IMG/VR virus record: IMGVR_UViG_3300043419_001013
Coordinates: 1 to 30,434 of that record
DNA: 30,434 nucleotides
Origin: a virus
Strand: one strand, 5' to 3'
Numbering within the stretch: position 1 is the first letter of the stretch; the number at the start of each line of letters is the position of its first letter. The position numbers and the translations under genes are program-made. This document shows positions 2,701 through 30,434 of this stretch, piece by piece. The notes under the pieces are model-generated. The model was not told the DNA's origin, made no database searches, and worked only from the letters and a program-made list of their open reading frames with translations.

Positions 2701-3764
2701 TGGGAAGCAAAGCAAAAGTACCCGCCCCTAATCCTCAAGCGGACTATAACCAGTATCTAGCCGAGGGTCAGAACGCTCTGCGCGTTCAGTCCACCCTTCT
2801 CCCTGAGCAGGCTCGCCTTGAGCAGACGCTAGCCCCGCAGCTCATTGATACCCGCATGGCTGGCCTCCGGGCTACATCCCAGGGTCTTCTCGGACTGTAC
2901 GGCGACCTCTATCAGCCAGCCCAGCAGCTCCAGACGCGATATGCCACCGACCAGCTGAACCTTCTTGGCGGTCTTGGCGCTCAGGCTACGGGCGCTGCCC
3001 TTGGCTCCCTTGACGCTACTACCCGTGGCATCTACTCCACCTTTGGTCAGCAGGCACTATCCGACCTTCAGGCCGGAACCTCCTTGACAGCAGAGGAAAC
3101 TAACCTCGCTCAGCAGGCTGCTCGCGCCGCTGCTACCGCGCGTGGACAGACCTTCAGCCGTCAGGGTACTGACCTTGAGATCCTGAACACCTACGGCATG
3201 GGTCAGCGTCGCCTCGCCCAGCGTCAGGCCACGGCTCAGCAGGCTTACCAGATGGGCGTTGGACAGCAGACTGTCGGGCTCCAAGGGTTCCTTACCCCCG
3301 CCTATGCTGGCTCCCAGCAGTACAGCCTGACCGGTCTTGCCGGCGGCGCCTCTGGGATGTATGCCGACGTTGGCTCGTCCCCGTTCCTCCAGCCCGAGTC
3401 TCAGTACCTCGCGAACATCCGCGCGAACCGCATCCAGATGGAAACCGCGATCCAGTCTGCTAACGCATCGCGCTCGGGTGGCATTATGGGTGGACTTGCC
3501 TCTGGCGCCGGCGCCGTCCTTGGAAAAGCCGCTGTTGCCGCTATCTGCTGGGTCGCCCGCGAGGTGTACGGCGAGGATGATCCTAAGTGGATGGTCTTCC
3601 GCCAGTGGCTACTCACGGAAGCCCCTGAATGGCTCCTCGACCTGTATATGGAGGAAGGCGAGCGTTTCGCTAAGTTCATCTCCGACAAGCCCTTGCTCAA
3701 GTTCATCGTCAAGAAAGCGATGGACATTGTGGTCGAACCCCGCTTTAAACTTATCGCAGCCTAA
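2700..3764 (+). CDS. Internal virion protein (gp14 position) with conserved C-terminal domain
   Basis: A 354-aa protein, coupled by TAATG overlaps at both ends. Residues 1-240 are rich in Ala, Gln and Leu and predicted mostly helical, with repeated small-residue patches such as GGLGAQATGAALGS. A Gly/Ala-rich hydrophobic stretch lies at about 260-280. Residues 281-340 contain CWVAREVYG, then MVFRQWLL, APEWLLDLY and ERFAKFI. I recognise this as a C-terminal module recurrent in phage internal and tail-associated proteins, often annotated as a tail fibre domain-containing protein. Position and small-residue hydrophobic patches fit a T7 gp14-type ejection protein that enters the cell envelope with the DNA. 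The function is inferred from order and composition. Confidence 0.6.
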   Translation: MGSKAKVPAPNPQADYNQYLAEGQNALRVQSTLLPEQARLEQTLAPQLIDTRMAGLRATSQGLLGLYGDLYQPAQQLQTRYATDQLNLLGGLGAQATGAALGSLDATTRGIYSTFGQQALSDLQAGTSLTAEETNLAQQAARAAATARGQTFSRQGTDLEILNTYGMGQRRLAQRQATAQQAYQMGVGQQTVGLQGFLTPAYAGSQQYSLTGLAGGASGMYADVGSSPFLQPESQYLANIRANRIQMETAIQSANASRSGGIMGGLASGAGAVLGKAAVAAICWVAREVYGEDDPKWMVFRQWLLTEAPEWLLDLYMEEGERFAKFISDKPLLKFIVKKAMDIVVEPRFKLIAA

Positions 3765-5956
3765 TGGCCTCCCCCTTCGCAAAGTATCAGTCCGAACAGG
3801 TTCAGCAGCTCGCCCCCGGCTTCGTCGAGGCGTTCGCCAAGTCTGGCGCCGCTATCGGGCAGGGACTCGCGAACATCGGGACGTCCATCGCTCAGGGCAT
3901 GGATGAGGCTGAGAAGAAGAAAATCGAGGAGGCTAAGCTTCAAGGCGCGCTGACTCCTTATCTTCGGTCTGAGGTCGAGAACGTCAAGCGCTCCATCGAG
4001 AACGGACTCCTGCAAGTCGGGAAAGACGGCAAGGCTTCCATCGTCCCTGGTCAAGAAAAGAACCTCGACCCCAACAAGATTGGTCGCGCCCTTGATATCT
4101 ATAATCAAACAGAGGGCGGCAAGAAGGAACTCAAAGCGGCTGACCTGAACTCCCTCGTCAGCACCATTCAGTCGTACGATACCCTTGAGAAACAGGCCGC
4201 TGAGAAAGCGAAGACAGTCCGTGACGCCAAGCTCGCTGAGCTTGAATACACGACCAAGATCCTCGGGAACGCGAAGACCCTCTCTGAAGGCATCCTGGCC
4301 TTCGCCGCCGACAAGCGTAATGCTGGCATGGCCTTCGCTGAGAAAGGTGACGCTAAGGCGGCTGGCTTGGCGTTCGCTGAGGCCAACGCCCTTTTCGATA
4401 AGGCGCGCACAATTCAGTTCGACGCGATGCGTTCAACAGGAACCAACATCGACGCCTATCTTCCGCCTGAGCCTGTTCCTCCGCCTGCTCGCCCTGCTGC
4501 CGCTGCTGTTGGATCCGGAGCAAGCACGCTGTACACCGTTACAACTCCTGCGGAGCCTGCGGCTCCTCCAGCCGGACTGGACTTCTCGCGCTTTGACAGC
4601 ATCTTGCGCGCTGGGTCGGCTCCGACTACCGCCCCTGCCCCAGCCCCAGCAGCCGCCCCTGCGCCGGTTAGCGCGCCTGCACAGGTCAGTGCTCCTGCAC
4701 AGGTCAGTGCTCCTGCGGCGGTTCAAGCGCCCGCCCCTGCTCCTGTTGCGGCACCAGCAGCCAAGCCCGTAGAGGCCAAGCCTACTGCCGCCAAGCCAGT
4801 CGTTACGTCGCGCGATATCCTGCTTGGAACAATCCCGCAGGCACAGGCTCCTGCCGCTGCCGCCCCTGCTGCCGTTGAAGCAGGAAAGCCCGTCGCCACA
4901 GCCGTAACCAAGCCGGCCTACATCCAGCAGGCTGAGGCTGAAATCGCATCGCTGAGGACGGCTCGCTCGATTTATACTGATCGCGCCAAGGCAATCCGCA
5001 TAGGCATGGGTGCATCTGGCATCCGTGGTGATGAGCTGAAGAACCTCCAGAAGCTCGCGACGGACGCAGACGCCCAGGCGCTCAAGATTGACGACGCCAT
5101 CACGGAGAAGATGAAGGCGCTCACGGCTGAACAGGCTCGCGTTGAGACTGGCGCCATCGAAGCCAGCAAGCTCGGCATGACTCAGGCCAAGGCCATGGAT
5201 GATCGTTTCCCTGACTTCGGGATGGGTTATTGGGCTGCTGGTCGAGCCAAGGCTTTTACGCTTTATCCTGAAAACCCGGCGCTCGCCCTCCAGGACGTCC
5301 GCATCGGCGGCATCAAGGGTGAGTCCAAGGAAATCACGGACACCATCGGCTCCATCGGCTCCTTCATGGAAGGTACAATGGCTATCGAGTCCGCTATCGA
5401 CTCCCGGCTTGAGGAGGGCAAGGGCTTCTTTGACCGCTTCACGCTCACCTCTGACGACTACGAGAACATCGCCAAGGGTAATGTCGGGGAGAAGATCCTC
5501 CTCGCGTCCATGCGCAAGGCCATCGTCTCCGGCGGCAACTTCTCCGACGCTGACCGTACGTTCGTCCTCGAAGCCATCGCGTCCATCAATACGCTTGACC
5601 CGACTAAGCGGAACGAGTACTTCAAGGCGCTCAATCAGGTCATGGCTGGCATGGTGTTCAAGATGTACGACGGCAAGCTCAAGTCCATGGGCGTCGAGCG
5701 TCACCTCGAACTCCTCTCGCCCGAAGAACGCAAGCAGGCCGTGACCCCAACCGAGACTGCCTTCCGCCAGCGCTTCGGGATCGGAGACGACAACCAAGCC
5801 GCTGCCGCGCGCGCTCAGCTCGCCGCCATCATCGGGGAGACTAAGAAGGCGCCAGGATACGCTTCCAGCCGATCCAGGGCAGAAGCCGCCGTCTCGACGT
5901 TCATCGACCGAGCCAAGACGGAAGCCGCCGCCCGCACGACTGAAGCGAAGAAATAA
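3764..5956 (+). CDS. Internal virion protein (gp15 position) with long Ala/Pro linker
   Basis: A 730-aa protein, close to T7 gp15 in length (747 aa) and at the same relative position, starting in a TAATG overlap. Residues 1-225 are helical with a charged coiled-coil-like segment (MDEAEKKKIEEAKLQ). Residues about 230-390 form a low-complexity linker of Ala-Pro repeats, partly encoded by an 18-base tandem duplication. Residues 390-730 are again helical and charged. The linker would give the two globular halves freedom of movement, as expected of a protein that must pass through the tail channel. I see no enzymatic motif. The stop is 3 bases before the next gene. The role in DNA ejection is inferred from synteny. 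Confidence 0.55.
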   Translation: MASPFAKYQSEQVQQLAPGFVEAFAKSGAAIGQGLANIGTSIAQGMDEAEKKKIEEAKLQGALTPYLRSEVENVKRSIENGLLQVGKDGKASIVPGQEKNLDPNKIGRALDIYNQTEGGKKELKAADLNSLVSTIQSYDTLEKQAAEKAKTVRDAKLAELEYTTKILGNAKTLSEGILAFAADKRNAGMAFAEKGDAKAAGLAFAEANALFDKARTIQFDAMRSTGTNIDAYLPPEPVPPPARPAAAAVGSGASTLYTVTTPAEPAAPPAGLDFSRFDSILRAGSAPTTAPAPAPAAAPAPVSAPAQVSAPAQVSAPAAVQAPAPAPVAAPAAKPVEAKPTAAKPVVTSRDILLGTIPQAQAPAAAAPAAVEAGKPVATAVTKPAYIQQAEAEIASLRTARSIYTDRAKAIRIGMGASGIRGDELKNLQKLATDADAQALKIDDAITEKMKALTAEQARVETGAIEASKLGMTQAKAMDDRFPDFGMGYWAAGRAKAFTLYPENPALALQDVRIGGIKGESKEITDTIGSIGSFMEGTMAIESAIDSRLEEGKGFFDRFTLTSDDYENIAKGNVGEKILLASMRKAIVSGGNFSDADRTFVLEAIASINTLDPTKRNEYFKALNQVMAGMVFKMYDGKLKSMGVERHLELLSPEERKQAVTPTETAFRQRFGIGDDNQAAAARAQLAAIIGETKKAPGYASSRSRAEAAVSTFIDRAKTEAAARTTEAKK
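4676..4711 (+). repeat. 18-base tandem repeat encoding Ala-Pro linker
   Basis: Two perfect copies of CCTGCACAGGTCAGTGCT encode PAQVSA twice inside the Ala/Pro-rich linker. The duplication explains part of the linker length. Confidence 0.9.
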
Positions 5957-5959
5957 TTT

Positions 5960-8900
5960 ATGGACGAACAGCCGAAGCTAGCCGACTACTCGCAGCCTTT
6001 CTATCAGTACGATGGAAGCGGTAACGTGGTGGGAGGCTACGGGACTACCGTACCTACATTGACTCCCGGGACTCCGGAGAACTCGATGTACCTGGACTCG
6101 GAGTTCTTGCGTTCAGACCCGAACATCGCCGCGCTCCATAAGGCTATCGACGACGACTTCGCAGCCGCGTCCAAGCCGAAGTACAGTGCGCGTGGATACG
6201 ACGTCCCTCCTGCCGCCATCACGACGCAGTTCTCTGATAGCGCTGAGGCCAAGCGTGCCATGACTGTCGCTAAGCTCGAAACCGAGCATGACGCCGAACA
6301 CGTCTTGCACTACATCGGTGACGATATCCGTGGACTCATCAATCAGGTTCGTGATAACGGGAACTTCGATTGGCGCGCCAGCAAGGACATGACGGATGAA
6401 GAAATCATCGCCCTCGCGGAAGCCCGTGGCGTCGATCCGGTAGCCATCAATTACCTCAAGAACAGCAAGAAGAACCCCGTCGCGAACTACGGCATTGATA
6501 TCATGTCTGCCGTCCGTCGGCGCATGTTCCGTTACGACGAGCGCTACCTGTCCGGCAAGGCCATCGCATCTGACGTCCAGAACCAGCTTTTCGCCCTTCC
6601 TGACGGCCCGATCAAGGCTCAGGCCATGCGCAATTATTCGTACTACCGGGCTTTCTCTGAGGACAGCATGGTGCCTCAGTTCGCGCACGCCCTCGGTCAT
6701 CTCGTAGCCAGCATCGGTGAGTCCGTCGCGAAAGACCTTCCCGTCGGCGTCTTCGAGGCTGTCGCCGGCACAGCCGATGAGAGCCTGTCCCCGAAATACA
6801 TCGCCAACAAGGAACTGCGTTCCAAGGCCATCGCTGTCGTCGAGCGCGCCGAGCGACTTGCGAGGACTGGTCTGTACAAGGATATCGCCCAAGGTGGCAT
6901 CGCCCGAGGGGACAGCTCTAAGGTCATCCAGAAGGCAGGAGAGTTCGTCAGCAATCCTGAAGTCCAACAGGTCATGCTCGACCTCCAGGCTTTGAACGAC
7001 GACGGAGCCTTCGTTCCAGCCTCCCGCTTCAGCCGTATCTTCTCTTTCTTCGACGGTGGCGTCAAAGCCACGCAGGAGTTCTATCGGATGTTCGCCGCGT
7101 CGTCCGACCCTAACAGCCTGTTCTTCAACCTTGAGGCCGGCATGAGCGAGCAAGGCGGACTGATGTACGCCATCAGATCGACAGCCCAAGGGACGAAGCG
7201 CTATCAGCTCGCCCGTGACGACGAAGTTCTCCGCATGGCGCACCAGCTGGAGTCGAACTACAACCATGCGAACTCGAACACCGACAAGGGTGGCGTTGAG
7301 CGCATGTACCTGACGATGGCGGATGCCGCGTCCGACGAGGCTACCAAGACCTATTGGCGCGAGGCTGCTAAGGCGGCTGGGGAACTCACCAACCTCGGCG
7401 TCACAGACCGGGCGCAATACGTCCTCGACCCGACGGTCATCGCCGGCGGTGCAGCAGCCAAAGCCGCGATCGGGATGGTCAAGCCAGCCGCCAAGGTTGC
7501 CTTTATTGACTCTGCCTTGGCTGCCAGGGCTTCGGCTCTTGGCGACGATATCCTCAAGGCAGCAGCCGCAACCGAGAAGGGTGCCGCCACGATCGAGCCG
7601 GCAGTCCGGGCGTTGCAGGATAGGCTTAAGCTTTTCGGCGTGGTCGTCTCGGACAACGAGGCTATCGCCCTTGCCCTGTCTAACAACGCTCAATCCTGGG
7701 AGGTTCGAGCAGCCCTAGGCGGCGTCACGTCTGAGGCCGCTACGATCAGGCAGACAATCGGAAACCTTTCTGCCGGCAACAAGACTCTGCGCACGAACGT
7801 CCAGAGCTTCCTGTCCGATGCCAAGACAGCCGCAGGCAAGGTTCCAAAGCCGAAGGCCGGCATCGCTCGTCCCATCGGTGGGGCTGTCGCCAAGGGCGCC
7901 GGCGTGACTGGTGAGTTCACCGGGAACTTCCTCGATAACCTCGGGGAGTTGCTTCTGGGAAGCACCCCTGAAGGCGTGGAGCGTATGTCCCTTGAGGGCA
8001 TGAAGGCAATCCGCCTTGGTCGCATGGCGGCAGGCGCCACCGGTGGCGGTGTCGTCGCTGTCGGCTACGGTCTTTATGAAGACGGCCCGGAAGGTCTGAT
8101 TGCCGCCGGCGGTCAGTTCGTTAAGGGTGCCGCAATCGCCACCGGGTTCGGCGTCGGCGCTAAGATTGTCGGCCCAGTCCTTGCCCGTAATGGTCGCCTT
8201 CTCAAGAACGTCTCCTCTGAGATTTCCAGCGGAGAACGCAAGGGTGTGTCAGCGTTCCTTCAGGCCGCAGATCGCCTAGACGCGAGCGCTCAGGTCATCA
8301 AGAAGTCAGACCCGAAGAAGGCGCTCCAGATGGCTCAAGACGCCCAGCACCTTCGTAACCTGAACACCATGGGTTACGAGGAAGCCCTTACGCAGACCCT
8401 CGTTGTCGGAGTTCAAGGGGCTTCTGGCGCCTCTGCTGGTGCTATCCTTGCGTGGGCTAATTCCCGCGATAGCATGTCCGCTGGAGCAGGCATGGGTTTC
8501 GGCGGCGCCCTTATCGCCGGAGCCGCATCTAAGCTCGGAGCCATGCTTCCGTCCGGCGTCCAGGCTTCCCGCGAGATGGGGGTTATGGCGACCTCCCTGT
8601 ACTACATCAATCGAGCCAGCCCCGAGCAGCGCGCGAACTTCTTCGAGATGTTCAACCGTGAGGTCGGCGTCGATGCCAATGGCAAGTTCAAGAACAAGGA
8701 CAAGGCCATGCGTATTCTCGATGCGTATAACCTGATGAACGGTGCGCTCGGTCAGGCTGGCTTCGAGCTCGCAAACCCCGGAGCCATGCAGGGCGCAACC
8801 ATCGCCACGCGCCATGCGAACATCGACATGGATGCCCTCAAGACGGTCGCAGGACAGATGTATCCTAACGACCCCAAGATGGCTGCTGCCTACGCCGAAC

Positions 8901-11900
8901 GTCTCGTCGAGCGCGTGAACACGCAGAACAATCAGTTCGCCACGATCGCCGCCGCCAATGCTCGCCTTGAGAACAATACCAAGGTTTCCGAGGCAAACCT
9001 CCGAACCATTGAGTCAATCAAGGAGGGCATCGCTAAGGCTGAAGCCGCCGGCTTGGACAAGCGTGCCGCTGAGCTCAAGTCAGACCTTTCCGCGCGTGAG
9101 GCCAAGCAACAGGTGTATGCCAAGGAGCGCGCTGTCCTCGAACAAGCCCGCGACCTTGAAAAGTCTCGCCTCGTAGATAAGGAAGCCGTTGCCAAGGAAG
9201 CCGACCGCCAAGGATTGCAGGGCGACGAACGCGCTAAGTTCATTGAAGCCGAAACGCTCCGACAGACGGCGCTCCTCGACCCCATCCGCCCTGGCGAACT
9301 GCGCACAGGCACAGCCGGGAACCAGATCCGCCAGATTGCCGACGGCTTCTATATCAACGACGGCAACGGTAAGGTCATGGTTGACTTCACCCGAGCCGAC
9401 GCCCTGACGATGATCCATGAGGGGTTCGAGGCCATCCTGCGAGACGACTCCCTGAAGGCTATCATGCCGGAGTTGGTGAACTTCTTCTACGCAGACCCTA
9501 CATCTCCGTTGTCCACGAAGCGCCTGCTGTCCGACCAGAACCGCCAGCGTTTCTTCGACCTGTACGCCTCAGACCTCACCCCGGAGAACGCCGCGCAGTA
9601 CAAGAAGGACTTGGCTTCCGCCGAGAAACTATTCAAGGAGACGGGAGATTACTCCGCCCTTCTGCCGTTCGTTCAAGAGGCTTCGGCTTGGTGGCTCGCC
9701 GTCCTTCATGACGCCTACCCCCCTGGCTACGCCAACGTCCTAGGCGCCGCCCCGACCTCCGGCTATCAGGGTCGTATCTTCGGTCGCATCTTCGAGGCAG
9801 AGAAGTCCGGAAAGCACAGCCGGCGACCCGGAGAGCTGATGAAGGCTCTCTTGGAGACTGGCACCAAGACTGAAATCTCTGGCGTGCTTGCCTCCGAGTG
9901 GGAGGCGTTCATGAACCCTGAGTACGGCTGGCTTGGCGAGAAATCCCGCAAGCTCATCCGTAGCCGCCTTGAGTCCAACGGCATGATCTTCGAGGACGCC
10001 TCAGACGGCACCGTCCGTGGCTACTTCCGTCAGAACGGCGAGACGATCAATAACCCGATCATGGGCGACCTGTATCGCGTCATCGCCCGTAATCAGGGCG
10101 GAGTCAGCGGCGTGCGTCGTTCGACGATGGATATCATCTCAGACCCGCGCGTCCCCGAGGGCGTCAAGATTGAGTGGATCAAGCAGAATGGACTAGACCA
10201 CATGCTTACAGACCCTGCTACTCCGGGAGAGCCTGTGCGCATCAAGACCCCAGAGGAGCAGACCGCTACCAATACCCGTATTACGGAAAGTGTTCGGGAT
10301 AGCCTTGGCAGCGTTCCAGCCGACCAGCGCGGAACAACCACCACGACAAACCCCTCCAACGGACAGGTCATCTTCCATGGCGTCCCGAGCCCTGCTGAGG
10401 TCGCCGTCATCAAGAACAACCCTGACATTCCCCCCGTCGTCCGAGACAACCTCGTCGGCATCATGGAGGGCATCATGAATGGGAAGACTAACGCCGTCCT
10501 GCGCGCTCAGTACGTCAACGTAAGCACTAAGCAGAAGGGTGTCGGAACCGAGGCGCGCCTCACAGTTCCAGAAGAAACGGGAGGCCCGGTTGTCAGCGAG
10601 AAGCAGTTCGTACCGCTTGGCCTTGTCTTCGGAGTTAGCGACATGCTTCCTGGTGGCGTCAAGACCCCAGGTGGAGTGAAAATCCCGTCCGTCAGCGTGC
10701 TTAGTTTCGACGTGCTAGCCGCCAAGGGCAACCTCAATACAGTTCGCAATCGCGGCCTGTTTGACAAGGAGGGCATGATCATCAAGGACGCGCAAGGCAA
10801 CGATATCACCCCTGCTCGTTTCCGTGAGATGTTCCCCACTGACGGCGACTACTGGAACGCGGTGAACGTGTACCTGACGCACCTTCAGGCTGCTGGCAAG
10901 ATTGACCCTACGAGCAATCGTCCCGTCATGCCTGCCGGCTATGAGCCGTCAGCCGTCAAGCTCGCCGCCCTCGTCGGAGATCCCACGAACATCAAGCTCG
11001 GAGAGTCCATGCGTAATGCGATCCGGGCTACCCTTGGTATCGACGCCAGAAAGGGGATGACGCTCATCAACCCCGCCGGATACGGCAAGGTCATGCGCGA
11101 CATCAACCAGACGATCAGCAGCTTCCGTATCGACGGTCTTGGTAAGGTTTCCATGACGGGCGAGACGTTCTCCATGGACTCCAACACCCTTGCGTGGGCG
11201 CAAGCTAATCTCGCCCCGTCCACATGGCGCGCGCTTAATCAGGACGGCTTGAACGCCCTGCGCGCCACGGATGGATGGAATACGACCCAGGCGTTCGGGC
11301 ATCCGAACAACAACTTCCGCATCGTCGAGGACAGCCGAACCGTCGATGGAAAGACCGAGAAGCGCGTGCGCATCTATGATGCCGCCACCGGAAGCCTGCT
11401 TGAACACAATGCCACTGACGTCAAATCTGCCCGCGAGTTCGTGCGTGATAAGATGGCTACCGACTCCGCGAACGCAGAGATTGCCGCCGCTGCCGCTGAG
11501 CTCGCCAGGACTGAGGCTGCTCGTTATCCGATCATCACGGAAACCCGCACCGGCAAGAAGGTTAATCCAGAGATGACGAATACCGTCGGGCCGATGGCTC
11601 CTATTGGTGGTGGTCAGAACGCCCTCACGCTTGAGCCTGGATACGCCTATCGTATCGTGAGCGCGAACGAAGTCCGTAGTATCTTCACGGAGGGCATGAT
11701 GATTACCGATCCTGCCCTTGAAGGTCAGGCTCCTCGCTCAAGGGGTCAGACGCTGAAGAAGATGTTCAGCGAACTCAATCCGAATAAGCCTGATGCCGGC
11801 TTCCGCCCAGGGTCAATCGTCGTCCGAGTTCGCCGTGAAAACGTCCCGACTGATACCAAGGGTATCCCTGTACGCGACGCAGACGTCCAAGTCATGCAGT

Positions 11901-12883
11901 TCGACGGCGAAAAGTGGGTCGCTAAGACCACCGCCGAGTTCCTAGGCGAGAAGGTTAAACCCGGCCTTGCCGTCAAGGAGCAGCAGGCTTATAACCAGAA
12001 GAAGGCTGAAGCCATCGCCGCTGCCGCCCGCCGTATCATCAAGGAGCGTGATATCAAGTTCGTCAAGAACGAGAACGAGCGCGTGGATGTACAGCGCCAG
12101 TGGGAGGAGGAAGCCGCGCGCCTCGCCTCGGACGAACGCGCAGCCGAAGCTGGACGTCGCGCCAAGCTCGATAAGGATATCGCTGAGGTTCAGGAGGCCG
12201 CTGCCGCCCGCCGCCGTGAGATCGAGAATGACATGGGCAGGCAGTTCGCTGACAAGGCCAACGAGTTCTCTGCCGCCGAACGCTTCTACTTCGGTGACAA
12301 GGTTAAGCTCAATAACGCCATCACCGTGATCGACAAGACCCCCAAGGGTCTGGTTGACCTCGAACGCACGTTGTCCCTTACGCCCCAGCAGCTCGGCGTG
12401 GAAGTCAGGACGGCATCCGTCGTCCAGCCGCTGCCCCTGCCGATCTACCGTCAGGCGCTCGTCTTCGATAAGCGTCCGCTTTCCAAGGCTCCTATGGACG
12501 TGATGAACGCCCGATCCGGCATGCGCGATATCGCTGAGGCCACGACCCTCCAGGGGGTCAAGGGCGCCATGCAGGAGGCGAATAACTACGTCCTGTCCAA
12601 TGCGCTTGGTCAGGTCATCGTCTCCGAGATGCGCTCCCGTCAGGGCGCCAATCCCTACCGCGTGTTCACGGTGTACTCCGCCGGCACCAAGACCAAGCTC
12701 ATCGAAACTGAGAGCTTCCAAGAGGCGCTTCAGAAGTCCCTGTCCGACGCCTACCGGTTGGAGGCCAAGGCCAGAGCCGTCAAGGTTCCGACGCAGGCTG
12801 AGGTCGGCATGGCCTTCGAGGTCGCCAGCCGAGCCACCAAGGGCAAGACGCTTCCCCCGAACATCATCCAGAGATACAAGTGA
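5960..12883 (+). CDS. Giant internal virion / ejection protein (2307 aa)
   Basis: This is the largest gene in the window and sits where T7 gp16 (1318 aa) is found. I see no N-terminal lysozyme-type motif like that of gp16. Two Gly/Ala-rich hydrophobic stretches lie at about residues 687-740 and 811-865, possible membrane-crossing parts. A long charged helix follows at 1000-1080. Around 1145-1160 there is TMIHEGFEAIL, shaped like a zincin metallopeptidase helix but with Glu in place of the second His, followed near 1240 by FVQEASAWW. Around 1893-1960, YRIVSANEVRSIFTEG and GSIVVRVRREN resemble the first strands of ADP-ribosyltransferase-like domains in large polyvalent phage proteins. Residues about 1995-2090 form a coiled coil. 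The enzymatic readings are tentative; the virion role is inferred from position and size. Confidence 0.6.
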   Translation: MDEQPKLADYSQPFYQYDGSGNVVGGYGTTVPTLTPGTPENSMYLDSEFLRSDPNIAALHKAIDDDFAAASKPKYSARGYDVPPAAITTQFSDSAEAKRAMTVAKLETEHDAEHVLHYIGDDIRGLINQVRDNGNFDWRASKDMTDEEIIALAEARGVDPVAINYLKNSKKNPVANYGIDIMSAVRRRMFRYDERYLSGKAIASDVQNQLFALPDGPIKAQAMRNYSYYRAFSEDSMVPQFAHALGHLVASIGESVAKDLPVGVFEAVAGTADESLSPKYIANKELRSKAIAVVERAERLARTGLYKDIAQGGIARGDSSKVIQKAGEFVSNPEVQQVMLDLQALNDDGAFVPASRFSRIFSFFDGGVKATQEFYRMFAASSDPNSLFFNLEAGMSEQGGLMYAIRSTAQGTKRYQLARDDEVLRMAHQLESNYNHANSNTDKGGVERMYLTMADAASDEATKTYWREAAKAAGELTNLGVTDRAQYVLDPTVIAGGAAAKAAIGMVKPAAKVAFIDSALAARASALGDDILKAAAATEKGAATIEPAVRALQDRLKLFGVVVSDNEAIALALSNNAQSWEVRAALGGVTSEAATIRQTIGNLSAGNKTLRTNVQSFLSDAKTAAGKVPKPKAGIARPIGGAVAKGAGVTGEFTGNFLDNLGELLLGSTPEGVERMSLEGMKAIRLGRMAAGATGGGVVAVGYGLYEDGPEGLIAAGGQFVKGAAIATGFGVGAKIVGPVLARNGRLLKNVSSEISSGERKGVSAFLQAADRLDASAQVIKKSDPKKALQMAQDAQHLRNLNTMGYEEALTQTLVVGVQGASGASAGAILAWANSRDSMSAGAGMGFGGALIAGAASKLGAMLPSGVQASREMGVMATSLYYINRASPEQRANFFEMFNREVGVDANGKFKNKDKAMRILDAYNLMNGALGQAGFELANPGAMQGATIATRHANIDMDALKTVAGQMYPNDPKMAAAYAERLVERVNTQNNQFATIAAANARLENNTKVSEANLRTIESIKEGIAKAEAAGLDKRAAELKSDLSAREAKQQVYAKERAVLEQARDLEKSRLVDKEAVAKEADRQGLQGDERAKFIEAETLRQTALLDPIRPGELRTGTAGNQIRQIADGFYINDGNGKVMVDFTRADALTMIHEGFEAILRDDSLKAIMPELVNFFYADPTSPLSTKRLLSDQNRQRFFDLYASDLTPENAAQYKKDLASAEKLFKETGDYSALLPFVQEASAWWLAVLHDAYPPGYANVLGAAPTSGYQGRIFGRIFEAEKSGKHSRRPGELMKALLETGTKTEISGVLASEWEAFMNPEYGWLGEKSRKLIRSRLESNGMIFEDASDGTVRGYFRQNGETINNPIMGDLYRVIARNQGGVSGVRRSTMDIISDPRVPEGVKIEWIKQNGLDHMLTDPATPGEPVRIKTPEEQTATNTRITESVRDSLGSVPADQRGTTTTTNPSNGQVIFHGVPSPAEVAVIKNNPDIPPVVRDNLVGIMEGIMNGKTNAVLRAQYVNVSTKQKGVGTEARLTVPEETGGPVVSEKQFVPLGLVFGVSDMLPGGVKTPGGVKIPSVSVLSFDVLAAKGNLNTVRNRGLFDKEGMIIKDAQGNDITPARFREMFPTDGDYWNAVNVYLTHLQAAGKIDPTSNRPVMPAGYEPSAVKLAALVGDPTNIKLGESMRNAIRATLGIDARKGMTLINPAGYGKVMRDINQTISSFRIDGLGKVSMTGETFSMDSNTLAWAQANLAPSTWRALNQDGLNALRATDGWNTTQAFGHPNNNFRIVEDSRTVDGKTEKRVRIYDAATGSLLEHNATDVKSAREFVRDKMATDSANAEIAAAAAELARTEAARYPIITETRTGKKVNPEMTNTVGPMAPIGGGQNALTLEPGYAYRIVSANEVRSIFTEGMMITDPALEGQAPRSRGQTLKKMFSELNPNKPDAGFRPGSIVVRVRRENVPTDTKGIPVRDADVQVMQFDGEKWVAKTTAEFLGEKVKPGLAVKEQQAYNQKKAEAIAAAARRIIKERDIKFVKNENERVDVQRQWEEEAARLASDERAAEAGRRAKLDKDIAEVQEAAAARRREIENDMGRQFADKANEFSAAERFYFGDKVKLNNAITVIDKTPKGLVDLERTLSLTPQQLGVEVRTASVVQPLPLPIYRQALVFDKRPLSKAPMDVMNARSGMRDIAEATTLQGVKGAMQEANNYVLSNALGQVIVSEMRSRQGANPYRVFTVYSAGTKTKLIETESFQEALQKSLSDAYRLEAKARAVKVPTQAEVGMAFEVASRATKGKTLPPNIIQRYK

Positions 12884-23925: not shown

Positions 23926-24221
23926 ACGGCTCCGTCGTATGGGTGAAGATTGACGTGCTGAACGACAAGCACATCAAGCCGGAACACCAGAAATACATCA
24001 AGTACACCAACATGGATATGCCTTGCATCTTCGTCGAGGTGCATGCCACTGAGCTGCTGGACGGCGATTGGCACGTCGAAGTATTCCACCGGCTGACGCG
24101 CCCGAAGTCCGAGCTCATCCCGATCTTGGGCAGGATATTCGGCAAGCGCTATTGGCATTACAGCAAAGACCGCCTGCCTGAATACATGGCTCGCGAAGCC
24201 GTGGAGGTGCAGCGTCTATGA
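23922..24221 (+). CDS. Hypothetical 99-aa protein
   Basis: Coupled at both ends by ATGA overlaps, between an unknown gene and the methyltransferase. The sequence alternates beta-like strands (VVWVKIDVLN, CIFVEVHATELL) with a C-terminal basic helix (RYWHYSKDRLPEYMA). A compact alpha/beta protein is likely. The close coupling suggests a partner role with the methyltransferase, but no motif shows this. Confidence 0.5.
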   Translation: MNGSVVWVKIDVLNDKHIKPEHQKYIKYTNMDMPCIFVEVHATELLDGDWHVEVFHRLTRPKSELIPILGRIFGKRYWHYSKDRLPEYMAREAVEVQRL

Positions 24222-24847
24222 GGGTGCTTGAGCTTTTCGCCGGTAGCAGATCTATAGGCAAGGCCGCTGAAGCCCTTGGAATGGAGGTGTTTTCGTCAGA
24301 CATAAACGACTTCCCAGGCATCCATTATCAGGTGGATATTCTCAAGTTCGACCTATCCAAAGTTCCGTTCCACCCTGACGTGATTTGGGCGTCCCCGCCA
24401 TGCACGACGTTTAGCGTGGCATCCATCGGGCATCATTGGCAGGGTGGTGCGCGTGCTTACATTCCGAAGACGGACGCCGCAGTTGTTGGCAAGGCAATTG
24501 CCATGAAGACGGTTGAAATAATCAGGCACTTCAACCCTCGCTTCTTCTTTATCGAGAACCCTCGCGGACTTCTTCGCAAGATGGATTTCATGCAGGACAT
24601 GAAGCGGCACACTGTGACCTATTGCCAATACGGAGACAGCCGTATGAAGCCCACGGATATCTGGACTAACAGCGATTTATGGGTTCCGCGCCCAATGTGC
24701 AAGAACGGATCCCCATGCCATGAGGCAGCGCCGCGTGGAGCCAGGACAGGAACTCAGGGCTTGTCATGTGCATATGACCGCAGCAAGGTGCCTGCCGAAT
24801 TGTGCGAAGAAATCCTCAAATCCTGCTTAAACCATGAAACGAAATAA
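24218..24847 (+). CDS. Compact DNA cytosine-C5 methyltransferase
   Basis: A 209-aa protein. Motif I (LELFAGSRSIGKAA, 4-17) binds S-adenosylmethionine. Motif IV (ASPPCTTFS) has the nucleophile Cys62, motif VI is FFIENPRG (ENP 113-115), and YCQYGD...KPTDIWTN (135-151) corresponds to motif VIII and what follows. The recognition region is reduced to a small Cys-containing stretch (MCKNGSPCHEA), so the enzyme is well below the usual 300-plus residues, as in several phage methyltransferases. It would methylate phage DNA against host restriction or mark DNA for regulation. No restriction gene is adjacent. GAGG lies 10 bases before the ATG. Confidence 0.85.
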   Translation: MRVLELFAGSRSIGKAAEALGMEVFSSDINDFPGIHYQVDILKFDLSKVPFHPDVIWASPPCTTFSVASIGHHWQGGARAYIPKTDAAVVGKAIAMKTVEIIRHFNPRFFFIENPRGLLRKMDFMQDMKRHTVTYCQYGDSRMKPTDIWTNSDLWVPRPMCKNGSPCHEAAPRGARTGTQGLSCAYDRSKVPAELCEEILKSCLNHETK

Positions 24848-25469
24848 ACGCAAAAAGACCCCTCGGGGTAGGACTATCATCGAGAAGCTAAAAGGAAACA
24901 CCGTCCTGCTTCCAGGTGGGGGTAGGTACAAGGTAGGCTTAGGGGTATGCTTTAGCGGTCAAGGTATAACTCCTATCAAGCGCAAGGGCAGGGTAGGCAA
25001 GGTAGGCTACTCAATCGAAGACGTCTCTGATCTAATGGACTACAAGCCCGAGGTAGGCGTCGAGGTAGGGCATGGGGTAGGCTTTGCCCTGACCCATGGG
25101 GTAGAGGGTTGGAAGACCTTTACTTACGACCCCGCCGCCTGCGTCATGGGGCATACGCACTCCCCCGCTAAGCCGTCCGCGTGGGCGTCAATCCGCGCGA
25201 CGTGCGCCGCTTACGTCCGGGAGTTGTGGGACGCGCTGCGCTGGTTTTTCTCCCTCCCCGCGCGCGCCTTTACGGACGTTGCCGGCACGCCCGCCCCCGC
25301 CGCCCCCGGCGTCGAACCTGGCGCGCCTGCCGACGTCACTCCGGCGCCGGCGGACGTCACCCCCGCCCCGTCTCCCTTCCCTGAGTTAGACCCCCGGAAG
25401 GTTTCAGCATGGGCGGCAGGGGCTGACCTGACTAAGCCTAAGCGCAAGCGCCGCCCCCGGAAGGACTGA
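24834..25469 (+). CDS. Basic protein of unknown function; gene carries eight GGTAGG words
   Basis: A 211-aa protein. It starts inside the methyltransferase end (14-base overlap) with the context TTAAACC and no SD. Residues 1-80 are Gly/Val/Lys-rich with repeated VG dipeptides (GKVGYS, VGVEVGHGVGF), mostly caused by the DNA word GGTAGG. Residues 115-140 contain an amphipathic aromatic segment (YVRELWDALRWFFSL). Residues 145-190 are Ala/Pro-rich with a repeated PADVTPA, and the end is very basic (KPKRKRRPRKD). Base composition shifts from here on. It may be a DNA-binding protein whose gene doubles as a DNA site. Confidence 0.45.
   Translation: MKRNKRKKTPRGRTIIEKLKGNTVLLPGGGRYKVGLGVCFSGQGITPIKRKGRVGKVGYSIEDVSDLMDYKPEVGVEVGHGVGFALTHGVEGWKTFTYDPAACVMGHTHSPAKPSAWASIRATCAAYVRELWDALRWFFSLPARAFTDVAGTPAPAAPGVEPGAPADVTPAPADVTPAPSPFPELDPRKVSAWAAGADLTKPKRKRRPRKD
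24867..25081 (+). repeat. Cluster of eight GGTAGG words inside a coding region
   Basis: Copies begin at 24867, 24921, 24932, 24992, 25001, 25052, 25064 and 25076, mostly as AGGTAGGC or GGGGTAGG. They are the same word as the tetranucleotide arrays further right, but dispersed and in more than one reading frame relation, so protein selection alone does not explain them. Confidence 0.75.
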
Positions 25470-27877: not shown

Positions 27878-28017
27878 GCACGCGACGCTTTAAGCTATGG
27901 ACACCCCGCCCGCGCTGGTTTGCTACCTTAGCGGACGCATGCGCAGCCGCTGAGGACTACCGCAAGCGCACCGGGTATTTTGTCGCAATAACCGAAAACC
28001 CTTCCCCGCGCGCCTAA
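27874..28017 (+). CDS. Small hypothetical 47-aa protein
   Basis: Frame from ATG 27874 (ATGA overlap) to TAA 28015-28017. It begins MSTRRFKLWTPRPRWF and ends with a small strand segment (GYFVAITENPS). A basic aromatic N-terminus and an alanine helix are visible. Gene-to-gene coupling on both sides (ATGA, then TAATG) argues that it is translated. Confidence 0.5.
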   Translation: MSTRRFKLWTPRPRWFATLADACAAAEDYRKRTGYFVAITENPSPRA

Positions 28018-28082
28018 TGGGGTATTTAATCGCGCTTTTATTGTTCGCTTTCGTCGCGACAATAACGGGGAAAGGTAGGTAA
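28017..28082 (+). CDS. 21-aa single-helix membrane peptide
   Basis: ATG 28017 overlaps the preceding stop as TAATG. The peptide MGYLIALLLFAFVATITGKG plus Arg is a single hydrophobic helix with a basic end. Its last codons, GGT AGG TAA, are the first unit of the following GTAG array. The size and hydrophobicity suit a toxin-like or regulatory membrane microprotein. The evidence is translational coupling and composition only. Confidence 0.4.
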   Translation: MGYLIALLLFAFVATITGKGR

Positions 28083-28106
28083 GTAGGTAGGTAGGTAGGT
28101 AGGTAG
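28083..28106 (+). repeat. (GTAG)6 array
   Basis: Six perfect GTAG units directly after the last gene of the first right-arm operon, before a terminator. Confidence 0.95.
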
Positions 28107-28109
28107 TCA

Positions 28110-28143
28110 GGGGGTAGGGCTCACGCCTTGCCCCCTTTCCTTT
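28110..28143 (+). terminator. Rho-independent terminator after first right-arm operon
   Basis: Stem 28110-28120 (GGGGGTAGGGC) with 28125-28135 (GCCTTGCCCCC), 11 pairs including two G-U, loop TCAC, followed by TTTCCTTT. The same right arm and T-rich tail recur at 30086-30101. Confidence 0.8.
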
Positions 28144-28149
28144 GCCGGG

Positions 28150-28180
28150 GTAGGTAGGTAGGTAGGCGCAGGCACGCGCC
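28150..28180 (+). repeat. (GTAG)4 array with GGCGC hairpin
   Basis: Four GTAG units (28150-28165) preceded by GGG and followed by the inverted repeat GGCGC (28165-28169) / GCGCC (28176-28180). The order matches the module at 30102-30159. Confidence 0.9.
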
Positions 28181-28443
28181 ACCCCCTACCCCTCCCCGCA
28201 GCTGCCGGCGTTCGACGTCCCGCGCGCTGCGCGCTGCGCCCTGGCGCCCCCGCACGTCCTCCCCGCGCCCCGTGGGGCAAGATCTCCCCCGCGTCTCGCC
28301 GGCGCCGCGTCCGCGTCCGCAAGCTGAGCCCACGCCCCGTCCGCCCCGTCCGCATGTCCCACCCCTCCCCGCGCATGCCCCCGCCGGCGTGACGCCTGAA
28401 ACAAAGGCAACCCCCGCCGGCACCGTCCCACCCCTCCCCTAAA
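28181..28443. other. C-rich noncoding tail between right-arm operons
   Basis: About 260 bases with no supportable gene. The + strand is packed with C runs (28182-28197 has three of four or more), and holds CCTACCCC, the complement of the array's leading GGGGTAGG. Words such as CAAGATCT and CCGCGTCCGCGTCCG recur in the tail after 30159. The frames seen on the - strand are low-complexity Gly/Arg sequence. Confidence 0.6.
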
Positions 28444-28467
28444 ATTAATTTATTTTCCTCTTTACTC
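28444..28467 (+). promoter_or_regulatory. AT-rich promoter-like element, copy 2
   Basis: ATTAATTTA, seven bases, CTTTACTC, identical in both blocks and spacing to 25503-25526, and 56 bases (versus 55) from block start to ATG. It starts the clamp operon. Confidence 0.65.
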
Positions 28468-28499
28468 CCCCGCGCGCTTCGCTTTGTTTTCTTTCCGAC

Positions 28500-28634
28500 A
28501 TGCAAACCTATATTGTAAAACTGAGCACCGGCGAAAGCTTCGCCGCTTCGACTAATAACGTTTTTGCGCTGAACCGCGAATTGATTGCCGCCGGCGTGCC
28601 GGTCTTTCAAATTATCCCCGCTGATCTTGCCTAA
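28500..28634 (+). CDS. 44-aa peptide, relative of the 25558 gene's N-terminus
   Basis: ATG 28500 to TAA 28632-28634. The peptide begins MQTYIVKLSTGESFAASTNN and ends PVFQIIPADLA. The GESFAASTNN part resembles GETFTASINN in the first gene of the preceding operon. The pattern of two strands, an SxxN turn, a helix (FALNRELIAAGV) and a final strand suggests a complete mini-domain. The leader has no SD. It is the first gene after the AT-rich element. Confidence 0.55.
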   Translation: MQTYIVKLSTGESFAASTNNVFALNRELIAAGVPVFQIIPADLA

Positions 28635-28646
28635 CTTCCCCCTAAC

Positions 28647-28865
28647 ATGATCACCCCCGCCCCCGTCCGTCCTTTCGTTATTATCAATCCCGCCGGCCTT
28701 TATTACGCCGGCACCGTCCGCACCCCTTGGGCGGATAACTTCACCCCTGCGCTTTCCCTTGCGTTCGTCTATTCTTGGGAAACCGCATGGAAAGAGATCA
28801 AGAACTTTCCCGTAGCGTTCGCCGGTTGCGTCGCGGTTGAACTCCCCGCCCCCGCCGTCCTTTAA
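28647..28865 (+). CDS. Hypothetical 72-aa protein
   Basis: ATG 28647 after the leader TTCCCCCTAAC. The beginning, PFVIINPAGLYYAGTV, is beta-rich; a helix with Trp residues follows (SWETAWKEIKNF) and then a strand (GCVAVELP). It lies 19 bases before the clamp gene and is probably co-transcribed. No family recognised. Confidence 0.5.
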   Translation: MITPAPVRPFVIINPAGLYYAGTVRTPWADNFTPALSLAFVYSWETAWKEIKNFPVAFAGCVAVELPAPAVL

Positions 28866-28884
28866 CCCCCTCTCCCCTAAAACC

Positions 28885-30042
28885 ATGAAAACCGAAAACA
28901 CCGAAAACGCCCCCGCCCCCGTGAACGTCCCCACCCCTGAACGCGCTGAGCTTTATAGCTTCCGCGTGCCGGCTTATCAGCTGCGCGCCGCGCTCAGCGC
29001 ATGCGCCCCCGCCATGTCAAAGGATCCCTTGCGCATGGTATTAAATGCCGTTTGCCTGGAACTGTCCCCCGCGCCTAAATCCGGCGGCGCGCCTTTCCTT
29101 ACCCTATGGGGGACGGACGGACGCCGCGCGCATGGAGTCCAGCTCCCATTGGACTTTTCCCCCGCTTCCGACGTCCTCCCCGCGTCGCGCTGGGCTTTCG
29201 TCCTTCCGTCGGAAAACGTAAAGCAGGCAATCAAGGGAATTGCCAAGAAAGACAAAGCGGAAGCCCGGGTTTGCTTTTACCGAGCCCCCGGCGGCTTGGT
29301 AAATGCCGCCCCCGTCCTTTGGATCTCAATTCAAAGCGCCGCCGGCGAGACGCGCGCGAAAGCTGCCGACGTCAATTTTCCTGACATGCGCCGCGTCATC
29401 CCGTCCTTATATCGAATGGACGGCGCCGGGGAGGTTTCTCTTCCCGTCTCTTACCTGCGCGCCGCGCTGGGGAATATCCAAAACGCGCAAAACGAAGCCC
29501 GCTTGACGTGCGCCGCTTTCGGGGCGGACGTTGCAACCCTTAATTGCGACAACCCCATGTCAGGCCGCGCCGCCGGCGAAGCGCTTTGCAAATCTCTCTT
29601 AAAGGACGCGGAAAGGGATTTGTGCCATGCCGCGCTGCGCTTTAATCTTGGCACGCGCTCCCCCGCCCCCGGCGCTGTTACCTGGGCGCTTAATCCTGCC
29701 CCGGTTTCCTATGCGCTTAACCTCCCCGCCCCCGGCGCTTGTCAATTCGACGGAAGCAAACCCCCGGCAAAGGCAATCCGTGGCGCTGAACGCGCAAGCG
29801 CGACGCGGAACACCCCCGCCGCTGACATGGGGTTAAATCCCGCTTATGTCGCGGACGCGCTCGAAGCTTTCGACGTCTTAAACGCATGTCCGGGCTTCCG
29901 ATTGGACGGGCTGGACTTTTGGACGCGCCGCCCCAAGGACATTAATCACTCTTGGGATCCCGTCGAATTATTCTCCCCCGCGTTTGATCGGGGCAGGGAG
30001 CCGGCATTTGTCGCGGTCATCATGCCTCAGCGCTTAGGGTAA
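28885..30042 (+). CDS. dnaN-like: DNA polymerase III beta sliding clamp-like protein
   Basis: A 385-aa protein (E. coli DnaN is 366). ATG 28885 (leader TAAAACC) is preferred over 28837, which lies in the preceding gene. Clamp hallmarks appear in order: an N-terminal SKDPLRMVLNAVCLEL and LTLWGTDGRRAHG (domain 1, like the LPIL...TD segment of DnaN); a central FPDMRRVIP (domain 2, like YPDYRRVLP); LNPAYVADALEAF (domain 3, like VSYVLDVLNAL); and a C-terminal FVAVIMPQRLG, the counterpart of YVVMPMRL. It would encircle DNA and hold a polymerase, probably the host's. The first 20 residues are an added Pro/Glu-rich extension. It is the last gene before the terminator at 30066. Confidence 0.85.
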   Translation: MKTENTENAPAPVNVPTPERAELYSFRVPAYQLRAALSACAPAMSKDPLRMVLNAVCLELSPAPKSGGAPFLTLWGTDGRRAHGVQLPLDFSPASDVLPASRWAFVLPSENVKQAIKGIAKKDKAEARVCFYRAPGGLVNAAPVLWISIQSAAGETRAKAADVNFPDMRRVIPSLYRMDGAGEVSLPVSYLRAALGNIQNAQNEARLTCAAFGADVATLNCDNPMSGRAAGEALCKSLLKDAERDLCHAALRFNLGTRSPAPGAVTWALNPAPVSYALNLPAPGACQFDGSKPPAKAIRGAERASATRNTPAADMGLNPAYVADALEAFDVLNACPGFRLDGLDFWTRRPKDINHSWDPVELFSPAFDRGREPAFVAVIMPQRLG

Positions 30043-30065
30043 TAAGTCCGGCAGCGCGACGCGAC

Positions 30066-30101
30066 GGGGGCAAGGGGTTAAACCTTTGCCCCCTTTCTTT
30101 T
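30066..30101 (+). terminator. Rho-independent terminator after clamp gene
   Basis: GGGGGCAAGGGGTT (30066-30079) pairs with AACCTTTGCCCCC (30081-30093) with one bulged position, followed by TTTCTTTT. It shares the right arm TTGCCCCCTTTC with the terminator at 28110. Confidence 0.85.
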
Positions 30102-30104
30102 GGG

Positions 30105-30148
30105 GTAGGTAGGTAGGTAGGTAGGTAGGTAGGTAGGTAGGTAGGTAG
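30105..30148 (+). repeat. (GTAG)11 array
   Basis: Eleven perfect GTAG units, preceded by GGG directly after the terminator. Confidence 0.95.
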
Positions 30149-30159
30149 GCGCATGCGCC
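30148..30159. repeat. 12-base palindrome after array
   Basis: GGCGCATGCGCC is a perfect palindrome abutting the array, the counterpart of the GGCGC/GCGCC hairpin at 28165-28180. Confidence 0.85.
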
Positions 30160-30434
30160 CCCGCGCGCGCCTGAGCTCCCCGAGCCCCCGCCCCGTTCAA
30201 GATCTTCGCCGGCGTCCGCGCAAGCTGCGCCAGGGGAAAGGCAACAGGCAACCGCGCCCCCTCCCCGCGCTCCCCCGCGTCCGCGTCCGTCCGTCCCCAG
30301 CGCGTCCGCCCCATAAGCCCACCCCCTCAGCGCCGCGCCCCCACCTACCCCACCCCCACAACGTCCCCACCCCATGCAACCCCCGCCCCCACCGTCCCCG
30401 CGTCCTACCCCCTTCCCCCAGGGGAAGCCCGCAC
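30160..30434. other. C-rich noncoding tail with run of i-motif/G-quadruplex sites
   Basis: No gene is supported to the window end. Between 30338 and 30399 there are eight C runs of four or five bases on the + strand, so the - strand could form G-quadruplexes. It shares words with the tail at 28181-28443, including CAAGATCT, and contains CCTACCCC. A third AT-rich element and operon may follow beyond the window. Confidence 0.6.

Follow-up and report, generated by a model that had tools for sequence, protein, structure and literature searches.

A one-directional GGTAGG element beside operon-end terminators in a clade of uncultured phages

Introduction

Phage operons are commonly described as ending in a hairpin followed by a run of U. 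The locus studied here raises the question of why two successive operons of a phage should instead end in a terminator framed or followed by pure tandem arrays of GTAG, an inverted repeat and a long C-rich tail, and what such an arrangement might do. A sequence-only reading of the DNA had described this layout as a duplicated module and proposed that it could be a protein-binding array, a replication origin or pausing site, a packaging signal, or a recombination-generated cassette boundary. In the literature of the open library we found no description of this terminator-array-palindrome layout.

The window, that is, the whole stretch of DNA analysed, is the complete IMG/VR record of 30,434 bases; end repeats are absent, and it covers part of a tailed phage genome. 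Genes for the tail and internal virion proteins occupy its left part, where a single ORF of 2307 codons (5960-12883) has no clear family match. Genes for Erf, exonuclease VIII and a DnaC-like loader lie on the minus strand in the middle, and the right part is a C-rich arm of small rightward genes, many of which lack a Shine-Dalgarno-like leader. The last of them, on the plus strand at 28888-30042, encodes a protein resembling a DNA polymerase sliding clamp (PHROG 947, E=2.4e-8) and closes the second operon.

A search with the large terminase subunit (TerL) gave 80 loci, by which relatives were sorted by identity; we define the clade as phages with TerL identity of ~77% or more, and the comparison group as those at ~64-67%. 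The nearest named isolate by TerL, Phage C75C1, was the best among 50,697 phage records at just 31%, so no cultured member of the clade is known here. TerL relatives at 50% and 34% identity sit in a Pedosphaera and an Opitutae metagenome-assembled genome, respectively, which suggests, as a hint rather than a proof, that this uncultured group infects Verrucomicrobiota. The relative G003, of 44,947 bases, is probably a complete, circularly assembled genome, since both its ends carry a direct repeat of ~127 bases. The IMG/VR contig L042 has Illumina adapter sequence (agcagaagacggcatacgagat...gctcttccgatct) apparently inside it at ~120-200, an assembly artefact.

Results

Two modules in the window

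Every feature named by the sequence-only reading was recovered where it had been placed. Around the first terminator, GGTAGGTAA and then (GTAG)6 lie upstream (28074-28106, plus strand), and a possible 21-codon ORF read from the sequence (28017-28082, plus strand) has its end, ...GGT AGG TAA, within this array. Intrinsic terminator 1 (28109-28144, plus strand) consists of an imperfect 12-bp stem (hairpin 28109-28136) and TTTCCTTT, and is followed on the same strand by GGGG and (GTAG)4 (28147-28166), so that one terminator is flanked by two arrays. The inverted repeat GGCGCAGGCACGCGCC / GGCGCaggcacGCGCC (28165-28180, no strand assigned) forms an alternating purine-pyrimidine stretch, and a C-rich untranslated spacer (28166-28440, plus strand; 53% C, 26% G) extends to the next operon. 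There, a AATTAATTTA box with TTTACT (~28441-28466, plus strand) forms a putative promoter conserved upstream of right-arm operons: the box, with TTTACT or TTTACTATTG, precedes the first start codon in the window, L013 (~1790), L016 (~1070 and 2990), L026, L028 and L029, and we treat it as a putative promoter type whose function is inferred.

Intrinsic terminator 2 (30066-30101, plus strand; hairpin 30066-30093) reads GGGGGCAAGGG(GTTAAA)CCTTTGCCCCC followed by TTTCTTTT, and shares the arm TTGCCCCCTTTC with terminator 1, as had been claimed. On the plus strand after it come GGGG and (GTAG)11 (30102-30149), then the palindrome GGCGCATGCGCC (30148-30159, no strand assigned), which recurs after the arrays of L013 and L242, and a second C-rich spacer (30150-30434, plus strand; 55% C, 22% G) cut by the contig end at 30434. 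Thus each outer array runs into a GGCGC..GCGCC repeat and then into a tail of 53-55% C.

The view that this arrangement is too regular for random low complexity held up: no (GTAG)≥4 arose in any of 500 first-order shuffles of the right arm, and all 15 occurrences of GTAGGTAGGTAG in the window, against 0.01 expected by chance, fall in these arrays. Other parts of the reading fared less well. The "shared words" of the two tails hardly exceed what composition gives, as 2 of 60 shuffled pairs score as high. The word CCTACCCC, proposed to pair with the array, is indeed present in the C-rich tails at 28185, 30344 and 30404, but relatives do not conserve the pairing; the clusters of other clade members have no such word beside them, and we rejected this candidate. 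The inverted repeat exists but is better seen as the local form of an alternating purine-pyrimidine tract. Likewise, although the window does hold two copies, "duplicated module" is too narrow a description, as the arrangement recurs at several different boundaries in the clade with differing hairpins and spacers.

Conserved boundaries between exchanged operons

The suggestion that related phages be searched for arrays at operon ends was borne out by the closest relatives. L016, whose clamp is 85% identical to that of the window, has 8 GTAG units after the same terminator, and L013 has 7+4, compared with 11 in the window. An assembly artefact, the concern raised about array length, is unlikely because L016 and L017, which come from different metagenomes, share a degenerate module 1 letter for letter.

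Terminator 2 is near identical in L013, L015 and L016. The clamp gene of L013 (303-1481) is a replaced homologue whose product is only 31% identical to that of the window (28888-30042); nonetheless, the terminator, array and palindrome downstream of it are conserved. L242 shares a 48-nt island (94%) comprising array and palindrome, and in L013, L015, L016 and L028 the boundary islands are conserved while the operons that they enclose differ. Related genomes having the genes without the arrays had been expected to make a functional module unlikely. L015 is such a case, keeping the clamp-operon gene and the terminator with no array; however, it lacks the array because its whole last operon is missing, so that array, tail and next promoter were lost together. 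In three of these relatives, a polypurine run (e.g., GGGGAAGGGGAAGGGAAGGGAAGGGG) follows the last, GGTAGG-less terminator (L016 ~3775-3810, L013 ~2500-2530, L015 ~2030-2065).

GGTAGG as the invariant part

Elsewhere in the clade the word is spaced as GGTAGGC, GGTAGGCC or GGTAGGTAG. G003 shows AAGGGAGGC..GCCTCCCTTTTTTGTGCCTACTT-GGTAGG, G014 has GGTAGGCC repeats on both sides of GCCCCCG..CGGGGGC-TTTTTG, and in G015 GGTAGGC surrounds GCCCCGGG..CCCGGGGC. Because these spacers differ, the comparison identifies GGTAGG (core AGGTA), rather than a 4-base period, as the invariant part of the element, with GTAG arrays as one of its forms. The pure (GTAG)n arrays are the slippage-expanded form found in the window's closest relatives; slippage very probably explains the length of the array and not the word. 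GGTAGG starts 9-18 nt past the hairpin end and/or about 9-14 nt before the hairpin start. An alternating purine-pyrimidine tract follows 73% of 41 GGTAGG clusters at p<0.05 (e.g., TACACGCACACACACGCACA; GCGCATGCGC in the window), often with AGCTGCCG next; it is absent in G014, G015 and L061, and short in window module 1 (p=0.10).

To quantify the association with operon ends, terminators were called by one fixed rule, which gave 51 in the right arms of 16 records, and GGTAGG was scored within 40 nt. On the rightward coding strand, GGTAGG adjoins 28 out of the 51, which agrees with the proposed tie to operon ends; the records are related and the terminators thus not independent, although hairpins, spacers and neighbouring genes do differ. 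When GGTAGG positions were shifted circularly within each arm (2000 trials), the mean was 4.0 and the maximum 12. At the same 51 terminators CCTACC scored 3 and eight other G-rich hexamers 0-2. Outside the right arm, GGTAGG accompanied none of seven plus-strand terminators and one of four minus-strand ones.

The right arms contain 195 GGTAGG against 40 CCTACC, and GGTAGG is 22.9 times denser there than in the rest. AGGTA is strand-skewed in 11 out of 11 records, GGTA is the most enriched right-arm tetramer, and in the seven array-bearing records paired GGTAGG points in one direction, save for one pair within plus-strand coding sequence of G001. The motif was looked for at leftward operon ends and none was found there, so polarity relative to transcription is inseparable from polarity relative to the genome arm.

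The element is also restricted to the clade. Seven of nine whole records with TerL identity of at least 77% have paired GGTAGG, the exceptions (G005 and G006) being fragments that may miss the right arm, and none of six long records at about 64-67% does. Among TerL loci reaching far enough upstream, most at about 77-82% show GGTAGG clusters and none below 67% does. A host origin of the word was rejected: of 289 Verrucomicrobiota genomes just 10 contain a GGTAGG triple, and the backward control turns up no less often. A scan of the collection for T6 plus paired GGTAGG gives no measure of breadth: the matches listed were mostly unrelated contigs, near chance by our own estimate.

Two contigs beyond the clade may be recorded here. 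L135 (minus strand), which matches the wider group in only two proteins, both distantly, has large GGTAGG arrays at 1023-1143, 2305-2342, 3850-4005 and 5067-5169; one of them has a T-run with (GCGTGT)n on one side and an opposing terminator on the other, and another is beside a GTTCCACGTGGAAC parS-like site. In L184 (minus strand), a contig without protein similarity to the clade, copies of GGGTAGGTTTGGGTAGGGTTG come right after a strong intrinsic terminator (~3231-3261).

Within the clade, not every terminator is marked. In right arms of the G003 type, the element lies at the ends of the first two operons and of one later operon; the middle terminator is skipped despite a hairpin nearly the same as a marked one, and the last terminator before the late region regularly lacks the element. 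Since these terminators are skipped, the element is no general terminator part but something that particular boundaries call for.

A coding tract and a neighbouring methylase gene

One site had been missed by the sequence-only reading. The gene at 24834-25466 (plus strand) has a first half rich in GGTAGG/GGGGTAGG (24865-25103), with eight GGTAGG words at 24867-25081; it is an operon-end tract with no clear hairpin, and it is read as V-G codons. In codons 1-120, GTA makes up 8 out of 12 Val codons compared with 39 out of 476 in the other genes counted (Fisher p=1.5e-6), and the L017 homologue behaves in the same way (10 out of 14). This codon bias argues for selection on, or a strong bias towards, GGTAGG as a DNA word.

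Directly upstream of this first GGTA tract lies a C5-cytosine-methylase-like gene (24218-24847, plus strand; PF00145, E=7.6e-9). A PF00145 gene was present in 11 of 11 array-bearing records scanned compared with none of 8 others, two of which are fragments. In a search for candidate trans-acting genes, with G003 taken in the orientation that puts TerL on the plus strand, both its methylase ORF (35393-36781) and a 107-codon gene near the terminase region (44058-44381) were found in 7 out of 7 in-groups and 0 out of 6 out-groups. The methylase was considered as the reader of the word but not adopted, as its co-occurrence with the arrays may reflect one clade-level event.

Discussion

Comparison of these genomes demonstrates the position, polarity, sequence specificity and clade restriction of the element, and shows that terminator, array and palindrome stay conserved where the clamp genes are dissimilar. 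What the element does is a matter of interpretation. We tentatively favor, at somewhat less than even confidence, a clade-specific cis-acting operon-end element that lies between tandem rightward operons of the right arm and acts on passing RNA polymerase. According to this hypothesis, GGTAGG would act on polymerases crossing the boundary, such that those that have passed the hairpin are stopped or held and the next operon stays under its own promoter; slippage would then multiply the copies on top, yielding the pure (GTAG)n arrays of the window's close relatives. Since the sites hold GGTAGG specifically rather than G-rich words at large, a sequence-specific reader would be the most likely candidate; it might be a DNA-binding protein of phage or host that forms a roadblock, or a factor of the NusG type that reads the non-template strand. 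Several observations argue against this hypothesis. Two terminator positions regularly go unmarked, as described above; the downstream copies lie too far on to be within the bubble of a polymerase halted at the U-tract, and so could give no direct help to hairpin release; the upstream-only cases (G001, G003, G004, L052 and L148) fit roadblocks less well; and neither a NusG homologue nor a recognisable repressor was found in these phages. Of the functions proposed from the sequence, a protein-binding or pausing element may be right, while a replication origin or packaging signal finds no support, as the copies are multiple, tied to terminators and missing at the last terminator before the terminase region.

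The nearest known systems are stoperators, ops/RfaH and GTAG-tagged REPs, and from sequence features membership has been established in none of them. The stoperators of the cluster A mycobacteriophages L5 and Bxb1 are asymmetric, mostly one-way and mostly off-promoter sites that stop elongation (PMC6550527, PMC9283540). A similar scheme, in which a phage-encoded protein bound one-way to GGTAGG at operon ends would halt elongating polymerase and perhaps act as a switch of timing, would fit the sequence-specific word, its asymmetry and single orientation with respect to transcription, and its several gene-end sites per genome (PMC6550527). We nevertheless consider it unlikely: stoperators are single 13-bp sites bound by the immunity repressor, distributed genome-wide and in some cases within promoters, whereas GGTAGG forms clusters of 6-mers that frame intrinsic terminators, concentrate at right-arm operon ends and are missing from the left arm. 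Among the Pfam matches and the 25 of 64 PHROG families listed for 38 ORFs of G003, no repressor or integrase was recognised.

Another rival is antitermination of the ops/RfaH type, in which a NusG-family factor, recruited by GGTA in the non-template strand, would allow readthrough towards the late genes. RfaH reads ops during elongation as a G4-G5-T6-A7 (GGTA) loop (PMC5995543); GGTA equals the core of the element and is the top right-arm tetramer, and the terminase genes lie downstream of the right arm. However, ops stands upstream of the genes that it controls and needs a closing C3:G8 pair and a NusG paralogue, whereas the present element is multi-copy and sits beside terminators at operon 3' ends, though also upstream of the next tandem operon, for which its position might suit. 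The closing pair and the consensus pause flanks are mostly wanting (AGGTA is the dominant context, and GTAG arrays offer no pyrimidine-G step), most copies follow the terminator, and the terminator nearest the late genes has none. The NusG family (PF02357) was found in 0 of 17 phage records, with the control positive in 10 of 14 genomes, though a host factor might serve instead. We hold this explanation to be quite improbable. The NusG-dependent intrinsic terminators of Bacillus subtilis also use non-template sequence near the terminator (PMC8060035), but there it is TTNTTT within the U-tract and here GGTAGG beside it. GTAG-tagged REPs, reported to be abundant in the verrucomicrobium O. terrae (PMC3733652), are a tempting comparison; like REP/BIME elements with RAYT transposases in general, they place GTAG beside a short palindrome downstream of genes. 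Each stem of a REP family, however, bears a single unpaired GTAG, and such families often reach high copy, whereas GTAG in the window's clade is tandem, lies on both sides of unrelated terminator stems and occupies few sites per genome; no RAYT (Y1_Tnp, PF01797) was found in 16 phage records. Phage-encoded NusG and Y1 transposase were accordingly set aside, as was a known Rfam RNA family (two sub-threshold matches and none above the gathering score). Rho utilisation was likewise rejected as an interpretation of the tails at large: most 80-nt tails have more C than G, yet their G content is 20-39%, and those of G014, G015 and L061 are GC-structured.

Further rival explanations must also be weighed. 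Operon-end repeats might serve as linkers by which the Erf/exonuclease system swaps operon cassettes. The phages encode homologues of Erf and exonuclease VIII, L013, L015, L016 and L028 differ in the operons between conserved islands, and L015 lost an operon beside the array position; recombination at the boundary did therefore occur, as the idea of a cassette boundary implied. Yet such linkage would leave unexplained the single orientation, the sequence specificity, the tight spacing to the hairpin and the GTA bias of the coding tract, and the conserved islands take in the terminators themselves, so we hold it to be improbable as the main explanation. Neutral expansion by polymerase slippage in unselected spacers would suit the variable array length (11, 8 and 7+4 units) and the low-complexity tails, but is very unlikely to account for the same word in the same orientation at non-homologous boundaries with different spacers (GGTAGGC, GGTAGGCC), for codon bias within a gene, or for absence from the sister group. 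The least probable explanation, in our estimation, is non-B DNA, that is, a two-tetrad G-quadruplex or R-loop on the G-rich strand that, beside a Z-prone tract, would serve as a barrier or supercoil sink with no dedicated protein needed. A two-tetrad pattern is present in 38 out of 41 clusters and alternating tracts come next, but the stabilisation predicted is weak, with only 25 out of 41 folds making use of it, and GGAAGG, GGTTGG and other words would be equally able, yet are unused.

If GGTAGG does act on RNA polymerase, it might belong to a new class of phage transcription-boundary signal, in which a polar GGTAGG and its alternating tract, read by a dedicated factor, set readthrough between tandem operons during infection, possibly in connection with the methylase; we regard this broader proposal as doubtful. 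A whole uncultured clade appears to add a second, sequence-specific and one-way signal to chosen operon boundaries, a signal seemingly strong enough to skew the codon usage of a gene. Marked and unmarked terminators coexist in one genome, which makes the question directly testable. Should the element control termination or readthrough, it would be a novel means of timing or insulating tandem operons in phages, and might provide a portable terminator part.
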